A stretch of DNA of 63,618 nt from Paludibacteraceae bacterium (GTDB lineage Bacteria > Bacteroidota > Bacteroidia > Bacteroidales > Paludibacteraceae). Under the pieces are notes generated by a model, which was not told where the DNA came from, ran no database searches, and saw nothing but the letters and a program-made list of their open reading frames with translations. The stretch spans positions 1-63,618 of the forward strand of contig JAFUUE010000089.1 of the NCBI GenBank assembly GCA_017483945.1. Direction: 5' to 3'. Position numbers and translations under genes: made by a program. This document shows, piece after piece, positions 8,905-55,557 of this stretch. Position 1 is the first letter of the stretch. Each line of letters begins with the position of its first letter.

Positions 8905-8948
8905 TAACATACTAATAACCTACTAATCACATACTAATCACATACTAT
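8905..8948 (-). repeat. 11-bp tandem array, four units (GTKATT family, inverted)
   Basis: On the plus strand the 11-mers are TAACATACTAA, TAACCTACTAA, TCACATACTAA, TCACATACTAT. Read on the minus strand they become GTGATTAGTAT, GTGATTAGTAG, GTTATTAGTAT and a degenerate GTTACTTACGA. The array lies 18-61 bp upstream of the start codon at 8966. It shares the 16-mer GTGATTAGTAGGTTAT with the array at 36021-36097, which runs in the opposite orientation. Confidence 0.85.
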
Positions 8949-16898: not shown

Positions 16899-18101
16899 TC
16901 AGCTTCGTTTCAGGTTCGTTCCAGGTTCGTTAGGCGCTACGGAGATGATGCCTCCACCGACGAGGAGTTCGTCCTGATAGAGGACGCAACTCTGGCCGGG
17001 TGTGACGCCCCAGACGGGCTCGGCGGTGCGGAGGGTGGCAGTCGTGGAGTGTGAGGTCGCCGTATAACGGCGATTCGCGGGCGCGGTCTGTGACCGAGAC
17101 AAAGAGCCCGCGTCCCAGGTGGCAGTCGTGGGGGGCGGGGTCGCGTCCCAGGTGGCGAGGATGGGAGCGGAGCGGTAGCGGATACGGGCGAGGATGGGCT
17201 GTGAGGGGTCGCCGAAGAAGCGGACATCGCGAAGGGGGATGCGGCAAGTGAGCAGGTCATCATGGCGACCGAGGGTGACGGTGTTGGCATCAGGGTCGAT
17301 GCGGGTGACATAGGCCGGCTCTCCGAGGGCCACGCCGAGCCCTTTGCGCTGGCCGATGGTGTAGTTGGCATAGCCGCTGTGGCGGCCGAGGACGCGCCCT
17401 TCGGCATCGACATAATCCCCCTGCGCAAAAGCGCGTGCGCAGTCGTCGGGCGAGCACTCGCGGGTGAGGAAAGCGCGGTAATCGCCGTCGGGGACGAAGC
17501 AGATATCCTGGCTCTCGACCTTCTGACTGAGCCGGACATAGCCCCGCTCGGCGGCCATAGCACGCACCTCGGGCTTGGTGTAAGCACCGAGGGGGAAGAG
17601 CGTGCGGCGTAGGTTGTCCTGCGTGAGCATCCAGAGGAAGTAGGTCTGGTCCTTGCGTGTATCAACGGCGGTGCGGAGGAAGAGGCGGGAGTCATGCTCG
17701 GCGATGCGTGCATAGTGGCCCGTGGCGATATAGTCGCAGCCGTATTGGTCCGCTACGTCGGTGAGTACGCCCCACTTGATGTGTGAGTTACAGAGGACGC
17801 AGGGGTTAGGCGTGCGGCCGTGGAGGTACTCGGAGATGAAGTTGCCGATGACCTCGCGGCGGAAGACGTCGCGGAAGTCCACTATATGATGCGGGAAGCC
17901 GAGCCGCTCGGCCATATGCTTGGCCTCCATGATGCTCTCGACGGAGCAGCACCCTTTCTCGCGAGCGAGGCAGGACTCCTTGATGGAGTCGTAGGTGCGG
18001 AAAGTGCAGCCGACAAGTTCATAGCCCTGCTCGAGGAGGAGCATGGCGGCGACGGTGGAGTCAATACCGCCGGACATGGCCATCAATACACGTTTGCTCA
18101 T
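16899..18101 (-). CDS. mnmA: tRNA-specific 2-thiouridylase MnmA with repeat-derived insert and tail
   Basis: It thiolates U34 of Lys, Glu and Gln tRNAs. The start ATG at 18101 gives MSKRVLMAMSGGIDSTVAAM; the longer upstream frame has no family similarity. The PP-loop motif SGGIDS is at residues 10-15, the catalytic Cys101 in NPCVLCN, and the second Cys in SQKVESQDICFVPDG. IGQRKGLGVALGEPAYV and VTPGQSCVLYQDELLVGGGI mark the central and C-terminal domains. There are two oddities. Residues about 313-355 (WDATPPPTTATWDAGSLSRS and onward) interrupt the C-terminal barrel with a repeat-encoded insert. The last residues (NEPGTNLKRS) are encoded by an 11-bp repeat array, where homologues end near GGGII. 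Total 400 aa versus about 360 usual. Confidence 0.95.
   Translation of the reverse strand: MSKRVLMAMSGGIDSTVAAMLLLEQGYELVGCTFRTYDSIKESCLAREKGCCSVESIMEAKHMAERLGFPHHIVDFRDVFRREVIGNFISEYLHGRTPNPCVLCNSHIKWGVLTDVADQYGCDYIATGHYARIAEHDSRLFLRTAVDTRKDQTYFLWMLTQDNLRRTLFPLGAYTKPEVRAMAAERGYVRLSQKVESQDICFVPDGDYRAFLTRECSPDDCARAFAQGDYVDAEGRVLGRHSGYANYTIGQRKGLGVALGEPAYVTRIDPDANTVTLGRHDDLLTCRIPLRDVRFFGDPSQPILARIRYRSAPILATWDATPPPTTATWDAGSLSRSQTAPANRRYTATSHSTTATLRTAEPVWGVTPGQSCVLYQDELLVGGGIISVAPNEPGTNLKRS
16900..16932 (+). repeat. 11-bp tandem array encoding the MnmA C-terminal tail (CAGGTnnGTT family)
   Basis: Three units CAGCTTCGTTT, CAGGTTCGTTC, CAGGTTCGTTA, followed by GGCGC. The stop codon of mnmA (minus strand) is at the edge of the array. 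The units match the array at 55525-55557 read on its minus strand (CAGGTCTGTTC), and both arrays end in GTTAGG. Confidence 0.8.
17034..17157 (-). repeat. Imperfect repeats inside mnmA
   Basis: GGTGGCAGTCGTGG occurs at 17034-17047 and 17118-17131, each followed after a variable G-rich gap by GGTCGC. CGTCCCAGGTGGC occurs at 17111 and 17144, 33 bp (three 11-bp steps) apart. The block accounts for most of the extra residues in the C-terminal domain. Confidence 0.55.
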
Positions 18102-23029: not shown

Positions 23030-24412
23030 TTACAGGAGGGTCTCTTTGAGTATCTCGCTGACGGTGGGGTGCGGGAAGATGACCTGACGGAACTCGGGGA
23101 TGGTATATCCCATCCGGACGGCGAAAGAGGCCGCGCTGACGAACTCGGAGCAGGGATTACCAATCATGTGCACGCCGAGGATGGTGTTGTTGCGGCGGTC
23201 GGTGATGATTTTGCAGAGTCCGGTGTCGCCCTCGTTCTCCGCGACAAAGCGTCCGCTATAGGTCATGGGGAGGGTGTGCACTTGGAAGAGGGAGTCCACC
23301 CCACCCTCCATGGCGGCGATGCGCTCGTCGCCCTCCATGTCGCAATAGAAGTCGCGCACCTGCTGTTCGGTGAGTCCGACGGAGGCTATCTCGGGGTTGG
23401 TATAGACGACAGAGGGTATGGCGTTGTAGGCGATACGCTGGAGAGGGAGTTGGCGGAGCATGCGTCCGACGGCGACCTCTGCCTGGCGCGCGGCGACATG
23501 GGCAAGCATGACCTTGCCGGTGACGTCTCCGGCGGCATAGACATTCTTGAGATTCGTGCGCATGAACTCGTCCACCCATATGGCACCGCGTTCGAGCCGC
23601 AGGTCCGAGAGGGCTTCGAGGCCTTGGAGGTTAGCACGCCGTCCGACGCAGACGAGTATGCGCTCAGCTTCGATGAGTTCGCCGTCGGTGATGAGGACAT
23701 CGCCTTCGACCGCTTTGACGCGCGTGTCGGTGAGGATGCGTATGCCGGATTTGCGGTACTTATCGAGGAGGAGAGCGACGATGTCCGGGTCGAGGTTGGG
23801 GAGGATAGTAGGCATGGCCTCCACGACGGTGACGGCGACGCCGAGTTCGTGGTAGAGCGTGGCGAACTCCATCCCGATGACGCCGCCTCCGATGATGGCG
23901 ACAGAGGCGGGCAGTTCCTTGGCCTCGAGGGCCGCGGTCGAGTCCCATACGGCGGGGTTGTCCTTCAGGCCGGGGATAGGCGGCATGAAGTTGGTGCTAC
24001 CGGTACAGATGAACAGCTGCTCGGCGGTGTATGTCTCGCCGTTGGCAGTGAGGGTGACCTCGCTGTCGGTACGGGCAGTCACTTGCGCGGGCGCGTTGAC
24101 GATGGTGCATGCCTGCAGGCGGGCGCGTATGCCGGCGACGAGCTTGCGCACCACTTTGGTCTTGCGCTGCTGCATCTTGGCGTAGTCAAAGGCGACATTG
24201 TCAGCAGTGACGCCATACTTGGCGGCATTGCGTGCATTGTGGTAGAGTTTGGCGCTATAGAGGAGCGTCTTGGTGGGGATACAGCCGACATTGAGGCATG
24301 TACCTCCGAGGGCTGTTTGTTCGAAGAGCAGGACACTGAGTCCGGCCTTTGAGGCCAATTCGGCCGCTGTGTAACCGGCGGGGCCTCCGCCGAGGATAGC
24401 AAGATTATACAT
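23030..24412 (-). CDS. lpdA: Dihydrolipoyl dehydrogenase
   Basis: This is the FAD-dependent E3 component that reoxidises dihydrolipoamide of 2-oxoacid dehydrogenase or glycine-cleavage complexes. At 460 aa it has the normal length. The FAD-binding motif is AILGGGPAGYTAAELASKAG, the redox-active disulfide GGTCLNVGCIPTK, the NAD-binding motif VAIIGGGVIGMEFATLYHEL, the second FAD contact NVYAAGDVTGKVMLAHVA, and the C-terminal catalytic HPTVSE pair. It is the first gene of the minus-strand run down to 14940. The only other glycine-cleavage gene in the window is gcvT at 52561, not linked. I see no clear promoter box directly upstream. Confidence 0.96.
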   Translation of the reverse strand: MYNLAILGGGPAGYTAAELASKAGLSVLLFEQTALGGTCLNVGCIPTKTLLYSAKLYHNARNAAKYGVTADNVAFDYAKMQQRKTKVVRKLVAGIRARLQACTIVNAPAQVTARTDSEVTLTANGETYTAEQLFICTGSTNFMPPIPGLKDNPAVWDSTAALEAKELPASVAIIGGGVIGMEFATLYHELGVAVTVVEAMPTILPNLDPDIVALLLDKYRKSGIRILTDTRVKAVEGDVLITDGELIEAERILVCVGRRANLQGLEALSDLRLERGAIWVDEFMRTNLKNVYAAGDVTGKVMLAHVAARQAEVAVGRMLRQLPLQRIAYNAIPSVVYTNPEIASVGLTEQQVRDFYCDMEGDERIAAMEGGVDSLFQVHTLPMTYSGRFVAENEGDTGLCKIITDRRNNTILGVHMIGNPCSEFVSAASFAVRMGYTIPEFRQVIFPHPTVSEILKETLL

Positions 24413-24471: not shown

Positions 24472-24557
24472 TCGACCGTCGGGAACGGTACGGGTCGCGT
24501 TCCGAGATCCGTCGGAGATCCGTCGGGGATCCGTCGGGAACGGTACGGGGCGGGCAG
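24472..24557 (-). repeat. 11-bp tandem array, eight units (GATCCGTCGG family)
   Basis: Phased 11-mers include GAACGGTACGG, GTCGCGTTCCG, AGATCCGTCGG (twice), GGATCCGTCGG and again GAACGGTACGG. Bases 24504-24549 are the exact reverse complement of 44391-44436 inside the oxidoreductase alpha gene (46 identical bases). Confidence 0.88.
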
Positions 24558-36020: not shown

Positions 36021-36097
36021 CTTTAGTGATTCTTTAGTGATTCTTAGGTTATTCATAGGTGATTAGTAGGTGATTAGTAGGTGATTAGTAGGTTATA
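36021..36097 (+). repeat. 11-bp tandem array, seven units (GTKATT family)
   Basis: Units: CTTTAGTGATT (twice), CTTAGGTTATT, CATAGGTGATT, AGTAGGTGATT (twice), AGTAGGTTATA. Each contains GTGATT or GTTATT plus five variable bases, except the degenerate last one (GTTATA). It lies in the predicted leader of the RluA-type gene and is followed by a small hairpin CGGAC-AAA-GTCCG (36100-36112). Confidence 0.88.
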
Positions 36098-41741: not shown

Positions 41742-43550
41742 CTAATCCAACTTCAGCACGGCCAGGAAAGCTTTCTGGGGAACTTCGACATTTCCTATCT
41801 GTTTCATGCGCTTCTTGCCACGCTTCTGCTTCTCCAGCAACTTGCGCTTGCGGCTCACGTCGCCGCCGTAGCACTTGGCCAGCACGTCCTTGCGCACCTG
41901 CTTGACCGTCTCGCGGGCAATAATCTTCGCGCCGATAGCCGCCTGTATCGCGATGTCGAACTGCTGACGGGGCAGCAACTCCTTCAGTTTCTCGCACATA
42001 CGACGCCCGAAATCCACGGCATTGCTCCGGTGCGTCAGGGTGCTCAGCGCGTCCACCTGCTCCCCGTTGAGCAGAATATCCAGCTTCACCAGGTCCGACT
42101 GACGGAAGCCGTTCGGGTGGTAGTCGAACGATGCATACCCTTTCGATATGGACTTCAGTTTGTCGTAGAAGTCAATGACTATCTCGCCCAGCGGCAGGTC
42201 GAAGTACAGCTCGATACGGTTGCCGCTGATATACTCCTGTTTGATGAGCTCGCCGCGCTTGCCCAGACACAGGGTCATGATAGGGCCGATATAGTTGCTG
42301 GTCGTGATGATGCTGGCGCGGATGAACGGCTCCTCGATATGGTCGATGAGTGTCAGGTCCGGCATACCGGCGGGGTTATGCACCTCATGCTCCACGCCGT
42401 CCTTGGTGAAGACGCGGTACGACACGTTCGGCACCGTCGTGATGACGTCCATATCGAACGCACGGTCAAGCCGTTCCTGGATAATCTCCATATGCAGCAG
42501 CCCCAGGAATCCGCAGCGGAAACCGAAGCCTAACGCCACCGACGACTCCGGTGTGAAGGTCAGACTCGCATCGTTCAACTGCAGTTTCTCCAGACTCGCG
42601 CGCAGGTCCTCATAGTCCTCTGCCTCAATCGGATAGACGCCCGCGAACACCATCGGCTTCACTTCCTCGAAGCCCGCGATGGCCTTGTCGCACGGACACG
42701 CCACATGTGTAATCGTGTCGCCCACCTTCACCTCGCTGCTCGTCTTGATGCCCGAGATGATATAGCCCACATTGCCTGCACTTATCTCCTGCGTGGGCTG
42801 CATATCCAGCTTGAGCACGCCTATCTCGTCCGCGTCGTACTCCTTTCCTGTTTTGAAGAAGCGCACGCGGTCGCCCGCACGCATAGTGCCGTTCACCACT
42901 TTATAGTAGCCGATGATGCCGCGGAACGAGTTGAACACCGAGTCGAACACCAGGCACTGCAGCGGCGCATCCGGGTCGCCCTGCGGAGCAGGCACACGCT
43001 CCACTATTGCGTCCAGTATAGCCGCCACGCCATCGCCCGTCTTGGCCGAGCAGCGCAGTATATCCTCGCGCTTGCAGCCTAACAGGTCGATAATCTCATC
43101 CTCCACCATGTCAGGCATCGCGCTCTCCATGTCGCACTTGTTCATCACCGGGATAATCTCCAGGTCATGCTCCAGCGCCATGTACAGGTTACTGATGGTC
43201 TGCGCCTGCACACCCTGACTCGCATCCACGACCAACAGCGCCCCTTCGCATGCCGCGATACTGCGGCTCACCTCGTAGCTGAAGTCCACGTGCCCCGGAG
43301 TATCTATCAAGTTCAGCGTGTACTCCTCCTGCTTTTGACTTTCGACTTTCGACTTTCGACTATACTTCATCTGTATCGCATGGCTCTTTATCGTGATACC
43401 CCGCTCTTTCTCCAGGTCCATGTCGTCCAGCACTTGGTTCTCCATGTCGCGTTTGTCCACGGTTCCCGTCATCTCTAACATGCGGTCGGCCAGCGTCGAT
43501 TTGCCGTGGTCGATATGCGCTATGATGCAAAAATTACGTATATTCTTCAT
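41742..43550 (-). CDS. lepA: Elongation factor 4 (LepA) with a heptamer-encoded insert
   Basis: This ribosome-binding GTPase promotes back-translocation and affects 30S assembly. ATG 43550 gives [20 protein letters not shown]; the longer frame extends into the promoter and is not used. The protein has 602 aa, normal. G1 is HIDHGKST, G2 in [10 protein letters not shown]3 [17 protein letters not shown]4 MNKCD, and the LepA-specific C-terminal domain is intact ([40 protein letters not shown]). The oddity is that residues about 61-72 ([11 protein letters not shown]), just before [13 protein letters not shown], are encoded by GACTTTC heptamers and have no counterpart I know in other LepA proteins. 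Confidence 0.97.
43337..43361 (+). repeat. 7-bp tandem array inside lepA
   Basis: Three GACTTTC heptamers plus GACTA. On the minus strand they encode the RKSKVESQK insert of LepA between switch I and G3. A related heptamer array precedes aroQ (3624-3644). Confidence 0.75.
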
Positions 43551-43583
43551 CTTTCTGCAGATTATTCCAACATAATTACGCTG

Positions 43584-43614
43584 CAAAGGTACAAATAAAT
43601 TTGCAGATATACAA
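43584..43614 (-). promoter_or_regulatory. Promoter of lepA (divergent module)
   Basis: Minus strand: -33 TTGT (43614-43611), 19-nt spacer, -7 TACCTTTG (43591-43584). It shares TTGCAGATATACAA (43601-43614) with the opposite promoter. Confidence 0.78.
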
Positions 43615-43684: not shown

Positions 43685-45685
43685 ATGCAACAAGTAGTAA
43701 TACGATTCTGCGGCGATTCAGGCGACGGCATGCAGCTGACTGGCAACCTCTTCAGCTCCCTCTCCGCCCTGCTCGGCGACGAAATCTCCACCCTGCCCGA
43801 CTACCCCGCCGAGATACGTGCGCCACAAGGCACCCTCGGAGGTGTCAGCGGCTTCCAACTCAACCTCGGACGGGACGTCTATACTCCCGGCGATAAGGCC
43901 GACGTCATCGTCGCCATGAACGCAGCGGCACTCAAAGTGTGCACGCTCGGCAGTAAATTCAACCATCCCGGCGCCGTCTTCAACACACGCGACGCACTCT
44001 ACAAACCCGACGCCATCATCATCGTGGACACCGACAGCCTGGCTCCAAAAGACCTCGAGAAAGCGCTGTACACCACCGACAATCCCTTCACCGAACTCGC
44101 CATTCCCGAGTCCGTGCAGGTCATCCCCGTCGCGCTCACCACGCTCACTAAGGCCGCGCTCGCCGACTCAGGACTGGACAACAAGGCCATGCTCAAGTCC
44201 CGCAACATGTTCGCGCTCGGACTCGTATGCTGGCTCTTCGACAGACCCATCGACCGCGCCATACACTTCCTCGAAGGCAAGTTCGCCAAGAAACCCACAC
44301 TCATCGAACCGAATACCAAGGTCCTCGTGGACGGATACAACTACGGACAGAACCTCGCCCTCAATATCCGGCAAATCGTCGTGGACCACACCCGTACCGT
44401 TCCCGACGGATCCCCGACGGATCTCCGACGGATCTCCGACGGCACACCGACGGCACACCGACGGCTGGCCGACGGCAGAGAGGAGGCAAACCCGTACCCC
44501 GGCCGACGGTCGGCCGACGGTCGACCGACGGTCAACACTACTCCCGACGTACCCGCCGAACGACCCTACACATCTATCGCGGGCAATAAAGCGACCGCCT
44601 GGGGCTTGATTGCCGCGGCCGAGAAAGCAGGCAAACGCCTCTTCCTCGGTTCCTACCCCATCACCCCCGCAACGGACATCATGCACGAACTGGCGGCGCG
44701 CAAGGACATGGGCGTCATGGTCGTGCAGGCCGAAGATGAAATCAGCGGCGTCTGCACCGCCATCGGAGCCGCCTTCGCAGGCGACCTCGCCTGCACCAGC
44801 ACCTCTGGTCCCGGCCTCTCACTCAAGTCCGAAGCCATCGGACTCGCCGTCATGGCCGAACTGCCGCTCGTCGTCATTGACGTACAACGCGGCGGACCCT
44901 CTACGGGACTGCCCACCAAGACCGAACAGACAGACCTCATGCAGGCCGTTTACGGACGCAACGGCGAGTGTCCCGCCGTCGTCATCGCGGCCTCCACACC
45001 CGCCAACTGCTTCGACTACGCCTACCGCGCCGCACAGATAGCGCTCGAGAACATGACGCCCGTCATTCTGCTCACCGACACCTATCTGGCTAACGGCACA
45101 TCCCTCTGGCAGATTCCTCGGCTGGCCGACCTGCGCGACATCCGTCCGCAAGGCGCGCCCGACGCACTCGCCGGACGGTTCAACCCCGCCCTGCGCGACC
45201 CCGACACGCTCGTCCGCTACTTCGCACCCGCCGGACGAGAGGGCTTCCAACACCGTAACATCGGACTCGAACGCGACGCCGAACGCGGCACTATCTCCAC
45301 CAACCCCGAGAACCACGAGCAGATGGTGCGCACACGTCAGGCCAAAATAGACCGCCTCGCCGAACGGCTCCCCCGACTGACCGTCGAGGGCAACACCGAC
45401 AGCGACACACTCCTCGTCGGATGGGGCTCCACCTACGGACACCTCCGCGCCGCAGCCGAAGCGCTCCATTGCGCGCACGCACATTTCAACTATATTAACC
45501 CCCTACCCGCGAACACGGCCCAAGTCCTCGCACAATACCGGCGCATCGTCGTCTGCGAACTCAATACCGGCCAGTTCGCCGCACTCCTCCGAAGCCGGAT
45601 AGAAGGCCTGCACATCGAACAATACAACGAGATTCAGGGCCAACCCTTCGCCGTTGAACGTATAATAGACTTTGTCAAACCATGA
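43685..45685 (+). CDS. korA: 2-oxoacid:ferredoxin oxidoreductase, fused gamma-alpha subunit, with 11-bp-repeat linker
   Basis: With the beta subunit it oxidises a 2-oxoacid (probably 2-oxoglutarate) to the acyl-CoA with ferredoxin. Residues 1-190 are the gamma domain (RFCGDSGDGMQLTGNLFSSL, PDYPAEIRAPQGTLGGVSGF, NHPGAVFNTRD). Residues about 295-530 are the alpha pyrimidine domain (ATAWGLIAAAEKAGKRLFLG, SYPITPATDIMHEL, VQAEDEISG, TSTSGPGLSLKSEAIGLAVM), then domain II and the C-terminal region. Residues about 236-290 between them are not conserved-looking: they are 11-residue repeats (DGSPTDLRRIS, DGTPTAHRRLA, DGREEANPYPG) encoded by the array 44391-44533. In homologues this linker is short. The total, 666 aa, is therefore about 50 aa longer than usual. 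Confidence 0.93.
   Translation: MQQVVIRFCGDSGDGMQLTGNLFSSLSALLGDEISTLPDYPAEIRAPQGTLGGVSGFQLNLGRDVYTPGDKADVIVAMNAAALKVCTLGSKFNHPGAVFNTRDALYKPDAIIIVDTDSLAPKDLEKALYTTDNPFTELAIPESVQVIPVALTTLTKAALADSGLDNKAMLKSRNMFALGLVCWLFDRPIDRAIHFLEGKFAKKPTLIEPNTKVLVDGYNYGQNLALNIRQIVVDHTRTVPDGSPTDLRRISDGTPTAHRRLADGREEANPYPGRRSADGRPTVNTTPDVPAERPYTSIAGNKATAWGLIAAAEKAGKRLFLGSYPITPATDIMHELAARKDMGVMVVQAEDEISGVCTAIGAAFAGDLACTSTSGPGLSLKSEAIGLAVMAELPLVVIDVQRGGPSTGLPTKTEQTDLMQAVYGRNGECPAVVIAASTPANCFDYAYRAAQIALENMTPVILLTDTYLANGTSLWQIPRLADLRDIRPQGAPDALAGRFNPALRDPDTLVRYFAPAGREGFQHRNIGLERDAERGTISTNPENHEQMVRTRQAKIDRLAERLPRLTVEGNTDSDTLLVGWGSTYGHLRAAAEALHCAHAHFNYINPLPANTAQVLAQYRRIVVCELNTGQFAALLRSRIEGLHIEQYNEIQGQPFAVERIIDFVKP
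44391..44533 (+). repeat. 11-bp tandem array, about 13 units, inside korA (GATCCGTCGG family)
   Basis: Units include CCCGTACCGTT, CCCGACGGATC (twice), TCCGACGGATC, TCCGACGGCAC, ACCGACGGCAC, ACCGACGGCTG, GCCGACGGCAG and, after two degenerate units, GGCCGACGGTC (twice) and GACCGACGGTC. Three units equal 33 bp, so the protein repeats every 11 residues. Bases 44391-44436 are the reverse complement of 24504-24549 without mismatch. Confidence 0.92.
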
Positions 45686-46713
45686 CACCACAAGACTTCA
45701 AATCAGACCAATACGTGCGCTTCTGCCCCGGCTGCGGTGACCACGCTATCTGCATGGCGCTCCAGAAAGCCATGGCCGAGATTGGCATACCGCCCCATCA
45801 GACCGTCGTCATCTCCGGCATCGGATGTTCCTCGCGCATGCCGCACTACCTCAACACCTACGGCTTCAACACCATACACGGACGAGGAGCCGCTATCGCC
45901 ACCGGCGTGAAGACCTCGCACCCCGAACTGACCGTATGGCAGATGACCGGAGACGGAGACTGCCTCGCCATCGGAGGCAACCATTTCATACACTCCCTCC
46001 GGCGCAACGTGGACCTCAACATCTGCCTCTTCAACAACCGTATCTACGGACTGACCAAGGGTCAGTATTCGCCCACCTCGCCCAAGGGCTTCGTGAGCAA
46101 GTCCTCTCCCTTTGGTACCGTGGAACGCCCCTTTATCCCCGCCGAACTCGTCATGGGCGCACGGGGCACATTCTTCGCACGCACGCTTGATGTGGACATG
46201 CCCACCACGGTCAACTGCCTCGTCGAGGCGCAGCGCCACAAGGGCGCCAGCGTCGTTGAGTGCCTCGTCAACTGCGTCATCTTCAACAACGGCACACACG
46301 CTTGGATAGCCGACCGCGACACACGCGCCGAGCGCACCATCATCCTGCGCCATGGCGAGAAGATGCTCTTCGGCCGTGATAACGAGAAAGGACTCGCCCT
46401 CGACTACTCGCAGGGCCTGCTCCCCGTACTGACCGTCGTCCCCGCCGACGACCCGCGCGTGCTCGTCCATGACACCACACTCGCCGACCCCACCCTGCAC
46501 CGCATGCTCGCCCTCATGGGCCAACAGCGCTACATGCAGGTGCCCAACGGCGCCGACCTGCCTGACGACGGACTGCCCATCGCACTCGGTGTCATTCGCA
46601 ATGTCGCCGAGGACACCTACGATGCCGCCGTCAATCGCCAGATAGACGAGGTCCGTGCCCATGCCAAAGCGCACACCTTCGACCAACTCACCGCCACCCT
46701 CGAACAATTCTAA
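45682..46713 (+). CDS. korB: 2-oxoacid:ferredoxin oxidoreductase, beta subunit
   Basis: This is the thiamine-diphosphate-binding partner of the gamma-alpha subunit; the ATG overlaps its stop by 4 bp. The protein has 343 aa. RFCPGCGDHAICMALQKAM is the family opening, GIGCSSRMPHYLNTYGFNTI follows, and the ThDP motif is MTGDGDCLAIGGNHFIHSLR followed by the NNRIYGLTKGQYSPTSPKG loop. The two-subunit layout without a separate ferredoxin subunit is common in Bacteroidetes. Specificity (2-oxoglutarate versus other oxoacids) is inferred from overall similarity only. Confidence 0.93.
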   Translation: MTPQDFKSDQYVRFCPGCGDHAICMALQKAMAEIGIPPHQTVVISGIGCSSRMPHYLNTYGFNTIHGRGAAIATGVKTSHPELTVWQMTGDGDCLAIGGNHFIHSLRRNVDLNICLFNNRIYGLTKGQYSPTSPKGFVSKSSPFGTVERPFIPAELVMGARGTFFARTLDVDMPTTVNCLVEAQRHKGASVVECLVNCVIFNNGTHAWIADRDTRAERTIILRHGEKMLFGRDNEKGLALDYSQGLLPVLTVVPADDPRVLVHDTTLADPTLHRMLALMGQQRYMQVPNGADLPDDGLPIALGVIRNVAEDTYDAAVNRQIDEVRAHAKAHTFDQLTATLEQF

Positions 46714-46776
46714 ACCATTTCAAACAACTCTAAACAACTCTAAACAACTTTAAACAACTTTAAACAACTTTAAACC
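46711..46776 (+). repeat. 10-bp tandem array between korB and nhaD
   Basis: Units of TAAACAACTT or TAAACAACTC with degenerate flanks. The korB stop TAA (46711-46713) is the first base triplet of the array, and the array ends 16 bp before the nhaD start. Confidence 0.85.
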
Positions 46777-55524: not shown

Positions 55525-55557
55525 AACAGACCTGGAACAGACCTGGAACAGACCTGA
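55525..55557 (-). repeat. 11-bp tandem array, three units (CAGGTnnGTT family, inverted)
   Basis: Plus strand: AACAGACCTGG, AACAGACCTGG, AACAGACCTGA, between the ABC-F stop and the deacetylase-like start. Read on the minus strand the units are CAGGTCTGTTC and the array runs into GTTAGG, as does the MnmA-tail array at 16900-16932. Confidence 0.82.

Follow-up and report, generated by a model that had tools for sequence, protein, structure and literature searches.

An 11-base repeat array in the korA linker of a Paludibacteraceae bacterium, probably one copy of a dispersed family

The korA locus and its linker array

The window analysed, a stretch of 63,618 nucleotides from a Paludibacteraceae bacterium (contig JAFUUE010000089.1), carries a korA-type gene whose product scores above the TIGR03710 cut-off (Table 1). 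The Pfam domains POR (gamma) and POR_N (alpha) cover residues 13-218 and 317-532, respectively, and between them, at about residues 236-283, the gene contains an array of 11-base units, each composed of CCGACGG and four variable bases. The korA frame stays open across the array, and the next residue after it that is invariant in 30 aligned sequences is Y295. TRF reports a period of 11 at 44403-44476 (6.7 copies) and at 44500-44533 (3.1 copies), as well as a period of 33 at 44403-44477, which confirms the 11-mer construction described in the first-pass annotation. The array is a mosaic of three modules in the order A-B-C. Module C fits the genus-wide pattern CCGACNGTNNN, and the CACA-type pairs of module B are found also on contigs C19, C33, C66 and C68. 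The claim that the array must stay in multiples of three units does not hold, as korA has 10 clean CCGACGG units, grouped 7 + 3, plus connecting sequence, and it is the total length that sets the frame.

Table 1. Array-bearing features of the window and of the remaining source genome (positions are those of the window; L numbers denote loci elsewhere in the genome)
Feature	Position or locus	Strand	Basis or setting
2-oxoacid:acceptor oxidoreductase alpha subunit, korA type, gamma and alpha domains fused, 666 aa	43685..45685	+	open frame
Module A: header CCCGTACCGTT and CCGACGG-ATCC/ATCT units (the 46-mer)	44391..44436	+	sequence
Module B: CCGACGG-CACA, -CACA, -CTGG, then CCGACGGCAGAGAGG and connector	44436..44490	+	sequence
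Module C: header CCCGTACCCCGG and CCGACGG-TCGG, -TCGA, -TCAA	44491..44535	+	sequence
Intergenic module A, same 46-mer	24504..24549	minus	upstream of minus-strand gene 23030-24412
Second header and one CCGACGG unit, TCGA type	24476..24494	minus	intergenic array
Pyridine nucleotide-disulphide oxidoreductase gene	23030-24412	minus	Pfam Pyr_redox_2
Isoleucyl-tRNA synthetase (ileS)	L131, source genome		array in open frame; passes NCBIfam cut-off
EPSP synthase (aroA)	L157, source genome		array in open frame; passes Pfam, below NCBIfam cut-off
rRNA methyltransferase	L150, source genome		array in open frame; passes Pfam, below NCBIfam cut-off

In order to compare the linker between relatives, the best 80 of 114 korA loci were taken together with the window, and 79 of these 81 could be parsed. 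The relatives listed are Paludibacteraceae MAGs, many from ruminants and other herbivores, and the best korA segment among the matches listed is 74% identical. Only the window carries a CCGACGG array among the 79 parsed linkers, and none was seen in the 28 other korA loci parsed from a set of 30 (G130 unparsed). Relatives show instead a shorter linker or other repeats, and a conserved protein linker is therefore rejected. Tandem repeats are present in 17 of the 79 parsed linkers, the window among them, at a density of 3.64 per kb versus 0.263 per kb in the remaining frame; the commonest period is 7 (14 of 28 rows), while a period of 14 accounts for three rows. For one such repeat (L052) a search of its own genome gave four matches, all confined to that linker. 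It is thus unsupported as a dispersed family, and some linkers may grow locally.

Repeats of other kinds surround korA. The adjoining lepA-type GTPase gene (41742-43586, minus; Pfam LepA_C) holds the 7-base repeat TCGAAAG at 43332-43361, in a loop that measures 14 residues in most parsed loci (30 of 36) and 25-33 residues in the other six, the window among them; the korA linker and the lepA loop have a stretch of 14 bases in common in L055 and of 11 bases in L079. A 10-base array of AACAACTTTA (46703-46775) starts in the last codons of the frame that follows korA (45682-46713), and contig C36 (L142) has this 10-mer after an array as well; it may be another dispersed family. Further 11-base arrays, with unrelated units, lie at 804-845, 8905-8947, 36037-36093 and 55525-55556. 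At 16899-16931 (minus) an 11-base array supplies the final codons, stop included, of a gene of the tRNA methyltransferase type (Pfam tRNA_Me_trans). Of the 19 arrays in the window, 7 have a period of 11, more than any other period. Among 69 arrays in stretches of 20 genus genomes, periods 7 and 14 (12 each) and 11 (seven) are the commonest, and one Markov shuffle each of the window and of these stretches gave one and three arrays, respectively.

Copies in the source genome and in the genus

Module A of korA is the exact reverse complement of its intergenic counterpart over 46 bases, with no extension possible on either side, so the inverted perfect match noted in the first-pass annotation, one copy of which lies within the korA linker, is borne out. 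A 45-base part of it has exactly two matches in the window at up to three mismatches, versus none in 100 dinucleotide shuffles. Read in its own direction, the intergenic array has a second header 55 bases further downstream than the first. The match had been read as recent copying between the two loci and not as slippage. Copying remains the more apt description of how the arrays look, but the event is not special to these two loci: a genome search for further 46-mers gave five beyond the window pair, i.e. seven exact copies on six contigs (C2, C8 twice, C19, C33, C61 and C92), and a private exchange within the window is rejected. With seven occurrences spread over six contigs, an assembly artefact is also unlikely. 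All 23 ATCY-type sites of the genome were fetched, and the seven with the exact 46-mer are among them.

The source genome searched (1.99 Mb, 93 contigs, 89% completeness) contains 95 matches to CCGACGG-N4-CCGACGG versus one for the backward control. We grouped these matches into 33 places, among which the overlapping contig-end pairs C60/C71 and C4/C37 possibly represent one place each. The modules fall into three recurrent types, A (ATCC/ATCT), B (CACA, CTGA/CTGG, CAGAGAGG) and C (TCGG/TCGA); their order varies, they are commonly preceded by a header such as CCCGTACCGTTC or CCCGTAGCGGAG, and the arrays are either intergenic or in frame within enzymes (korA, ileS, aroA and the rRNA methyltransferase). 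This looks like a genome-wide spread of 11-base repeats in a gut bacterium, with dozens of copies and no private link between two loci. The same array, with a few other differences, has three units at the end of contig C4 (C4:31527, L130) and five at that of C37 (C37:1, L143), which may reflect strain variation, paralogy or assembly. Two further arrays near contig ends (L134 on C16 and L146 on C52) each lie close to the same sequence of about 50 bases, which by eye we take to be the end of an insertion sequence.

These counts bear on the idea that tandem repeats expanded locally in each linker and resemble each other between loci by chance. The L052 repeat, restricted to its own linker, and the tandem arrays of period 7, 8, 9 and 11 present in many loops are consistent with such growth. 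However, 46 exact bases at seven loci are not due to chance, and with a period of 11 each unit gained or lost shifts the frame, which makes stepwise growth in a needed gene hard. We hold this explanation to be extremely improbable, and for the CCGACGG family of the source genome it is in our view refuted.

A search for a mobile gene tied to the arrays gave none, the sole Y1 transposase match (Y1_Tnp, C9:537-767, L218) accompanying another repeat. This repeat, the palindrome GGACGCGGGCGGCTCGCCCGCG, has 142 matches in the genome at up to one mismatch, often as inverted pairs about 80 bases apart; it flanks the Y1_Tnp match and apparently supplies some of the N-terminal coding sequence of that frame, and together the two look like a REP/REPIN with its RAYT. 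The palindrome is also found in frame in aroA, the rRNA methyltransferase, an HU-domain protein (L160) and a sigma-54 regulator (L167). A REP/RAYT system of this kind could spread the 11-base repeats within larger mosaic blocks, given that the palindrome is often near arrays, shares the in-frame habit in these four genes and flanks the only Y1_Tnp match in inverted pairs. The transposase contig C9, however, has no CCGACGG-N4-CCGACGG match, the arrays showed no special hairpin in a fold test, and GGACGCGGGCGGCTCGCCCGCG is missing from the window (up to one mismatch) despite the two arrays there. We regard this origin as improbable.

Of 151 genus genomes, 97 contain the three-unit CCGACNGTNNN array (96 of 150 if the window's own genome is set aside) and 54, some of which are incomplete, lack it; the backward control gave three matches, all within one genus genome. 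When 295 genomes from across the order were searched, the pattern was present in that of the window, in G129, a member of the same genus, and in a single one of the 293 that belong to other genera. Among the genomes searched, the CCGACGG-type family is thus virtually confined to this Paludibacteraceae genus, with one exception. Arrays of the ATCY spelling were found in none of 40 other genomes searched (24 from the same genus), and a search of G121 for the exact CCGACGG-N4-CCGACGG pair gave none.

Among the matches listed, the last four letters of the unit vary by species or species group: CGAA/CGAG with TCGA in G130, CGAA/CGAG/CGGA with TCGA in G086, predominantly TCAA in G050, G041 and G017, TCAG in G084 and TCGC-like letters in G082 and G066. 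TCAA is common to many genus genomes in this set; one or two letter sets dominate most genomes, while G098 and G104 are mixed. The likeness of copies within a genome suggests continued copying or conversion. Homogenisation is uneven across genomes, and spellings common to several species may, as far as their letters tell, be due to plain descent.

Coding copies, reading frames and orientation

The ileS loop was compared in the 30 best loci of 135 matching genomes, ranked by likeness to an array-containing query, and in 20 further loci hand-picked from lower ranks; all 50 were parsed. At least two adjacent CCGAC units, of differing spellings, are present in 17 of the 50, a frequency that is inflated because the query itself contains an array and the sample favours such loci. 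The loop is spelled CGAA in G130, TCGA in G086, ATCC/ATCT in G000 and TCAA in G050, G129, G101, G095, G155 and G144, and the letter set recurs elsewhere in the same genome in G130, G086, G000, G050, G129, G101 and G144. The same loop holds other tandem repeats in G005 (GGAAGCTCATC), G011 (ACGAAAACGAC), G041 (GGACAAT), G082 (AATACCGG) and G136 (GACCTTAAA), and is short in G158, G112, G003 and G083. The 11-mer GGAAGCTCATC is found at four other loci of G005 (up to two mismatches). In other species, an ABC protein (L238), a glycosyltransferase (L208) and a flavoprotein (L222) each carry an array between their Pfam domains. The array of L236 (residue 355) is close to the border of the EPSP synthase match (189-308) and the glycosyltransferase match (342-556) of a single frame, and that of L237 (residue 406) is inside the span of a phosphatase N-terminal domain. 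The aroA copy of the source genome carries two inserts, and in the rRNA methyltransferase the PUA-like domain is reported as two stretches. The scores of these two proteins below the NCBIfam cut-offs indicate that some inserts may harm.

Since 11 cannot be divided by three, an array encodes one and the same peptide, in rotation, whichever frame is used. In nine CCGACGG units tested the sense strand is without stops in all frames, while TCAA and TCAG units have antisense stops in every frame; in the units of the source genome both strands are open. The coding arrays use the three phases in the proportion 8/7/3 (n=18; of the 19 coding sites given, L208 was missed by the pattern, and for L220 two frames are possible), and ileS alone covers all three phases in the seven species tested. 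This mixture argues against selection for one peptide. Since each single-unit step breaks the frame, stepwise slippage within the gene is also argued against, and a run of exactly three units is seen in 15 of the 18 coding arrays, in several genes and species.

The same arithmetic underlies the suggestion of the first-pass annotation that a change of one unit would switch korA off. Counted from the first unit, the two other korA frames reach a stop after 62 and 68 codons, so that loss or gain of one unit would remove the alpha domain. Slippage at the array could then act as a contingency switch, and the C4/C37 ends, which lie outside korA and have three versus five units with degenerate ones counted, suggest that unit number can differ within the assembled population or between copies. 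On the other hand, exactly three units run together in most coding arrays, the korA units are degenerate, which should hamper slippage, and core genes such as ileS are unlikely targets. The frame-shift is arithmetic and no evidence of a switch; on/off switching of korA is unsupported, and we consider it very unlikely.

Orientation was scored in 86 entries, with genes taken from our codon-usage script, which missed gene 23030-24412; some entries are duplicates (L213 and L229; one L129 site entered three times), and the end pairs C60/C71 and C4/C37 probably represent one locus each. Between co-directional genes, 30 arrays run with the genes and seven against (one duplicate, six distinct; binomial p ~7e-5). 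All 16 clear coding copies, which come from several species and are flanked on each side by 60 codons or more, are in sense orientation, including the four of the source genome. Antisense stops bias coding copies to sense for the TCAA and TCAG spellings only. The orientation of the arrays may stem from selection or from a copying step tied to transcripts.

This strand bias, between genes and in coding copies alike, would be in line with the arrays being functional sites, e.g. for an RNA- or DNA-binding protein, selected in transcript leaders and tolerated in linkers, and it agrees with such a role that the CCGACGG core is kept while the four other letters drift. The Bacteroidetes -7 box has the form TAnnTTTG. 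Within 80 bases upstream of the arrays this motif was found at none of 24 in the source genome and at six of 35 in other species, versus two to four in three control windows, and the three array RNAs that were folded did no better than shuffles (z -0.73, 0.92 and -0.96); a promoter association and an RNA structure are thus both unsupported. Against functional sites speak also the lack of the pattern in the 54 genus genomes, some of them incomplete, and the antisense stops, which alone bias the TCAA/TCAG coding copies. We therefore hold this role to be rather unlikely.

Interpretation and comparison with known systems

The explanation that we consider likely is that the korA insert represents a copy from a dispersed 11-base family, the ready-made blocks of which land in tolerant linkers. 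Our confidence is tempered by spellings that are not fully uniform within species. Preformed blocks of about three units and a header would be copied to new places in the genome and persist in intergenic regions, and in protein loops and interdomain linkers that tolerate extra residues. A block in a linker would harm little, given a non-triplet period and stop-free sense frames, with only the total length having to fit. Copies within a genome would tend to be kept alike, and the same loop would be refilled or overwritten across species, the korA array being a passenger linker. The distribution of the copies is what suggests copying in as blocks, homogenisation and near-neutrality.

A bolder extension, which we put forward tentatively and regard as doubtful, is that frame-agnostic arrays of 11-base (and 7-base) units, with no stop in any of the three sense frames, are copied in transcript orientation into the genes and leaders of one genus, perhaps via an RNA or single-strand intermediate, and that species-level spellings keep rewriting the loops of core enzymes. 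If so, the length and sequence of linkers would turn over by module exchange rather than by point mutation. A stop-free array with a non-triplet period is readable in any frame. The findings as a whole suggest that non-triplet short tandem repeats may serve, genus-wide, as spare parts for the linkers of core enzymes. The spellings of the ileS loop offer a natural series on the spread and homogenisation of small repeats and on the cost of linker turnover. Also, arrays of period 11 or 7 within genes are not necessarily switches.

A search of the open-licence literature (Paludibacteraceae, Bacteroidetes, Bacteroidales and period-11 topics) gave, among the papers listed, no description of these arrays. 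The Rickettsia palindromic elements (RPE), as summarised in PMC10969869 (Ogata and others 2000, 2002), are small dispersed repeats that have inserted in frame into protein-coding genes unrelated to each other and share a conserved peptide; they are palindromic with a length of about 150 bp. The arrays likewise sit in frame in unrelated genes (korA, ileS, aroA and the rRNA methyltransferase, with more in other genomes), but they are tandem 11-mers read in all three frames, with spellings that differ between sister species at the same loop; nor do they share the hairpin of that summary, as their RNAs fold like shuffles and the unit holds only CCG-A-CGG. The TAACTGA heptamers of Beggiatoaceae, Cyanobacteria and Bacteroidetes are, according to the account in PMC4679880, intergenic direct repeats, many per genome, oriented upstream of start codons and of unknown mobility and function; some lie within frames, mainly at the protein periphery, and they have stops on the forward strand. 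The arrays are also short non-triplet tandem repeats oriented with neighbouring genes (30 versus 7), whereas their unit is an 11-mer (CCGACGG-N4) and not a 7-mer, with a stop-free sense strand and a location inside core enzymes.

REP/REPIN sequences and their RAYT, including GTAG- and CGTC-tagged kinds, are described in PMC3733652 and PMC6006769 as dispersed, genome-specific and sometimes coding, traits which the arrays share. In these descriptions REPs are tagged palindromes, the GTAG kind being tied to a Y1 transposase, while the arrays are neither, the sole Y1_Tnp match (C9) being flanked by another repeat. The heptameric G-rich repeats of Xanthomonas and Nostoc, in the description of PMC4692102, are over-represented non-triplet tandem repeats of the G-quadruplex type, placed preferably between aligned genes and under-represented in coding regions. 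The arrays resemble them as over-represented non-triplet tandem repeats with a preference for positions between aligned genes, and differ in having coding copies and in not being of the G-quadruplex type. The arrays lack at least one defining feature of the RPE, of the TAACTGA heptamers and of REP. By analogy, the RPE appear nearest in idea, the TAACTGA heptamers nearest in form, and REP the nearest system of dispersed, genome-specific repeats.
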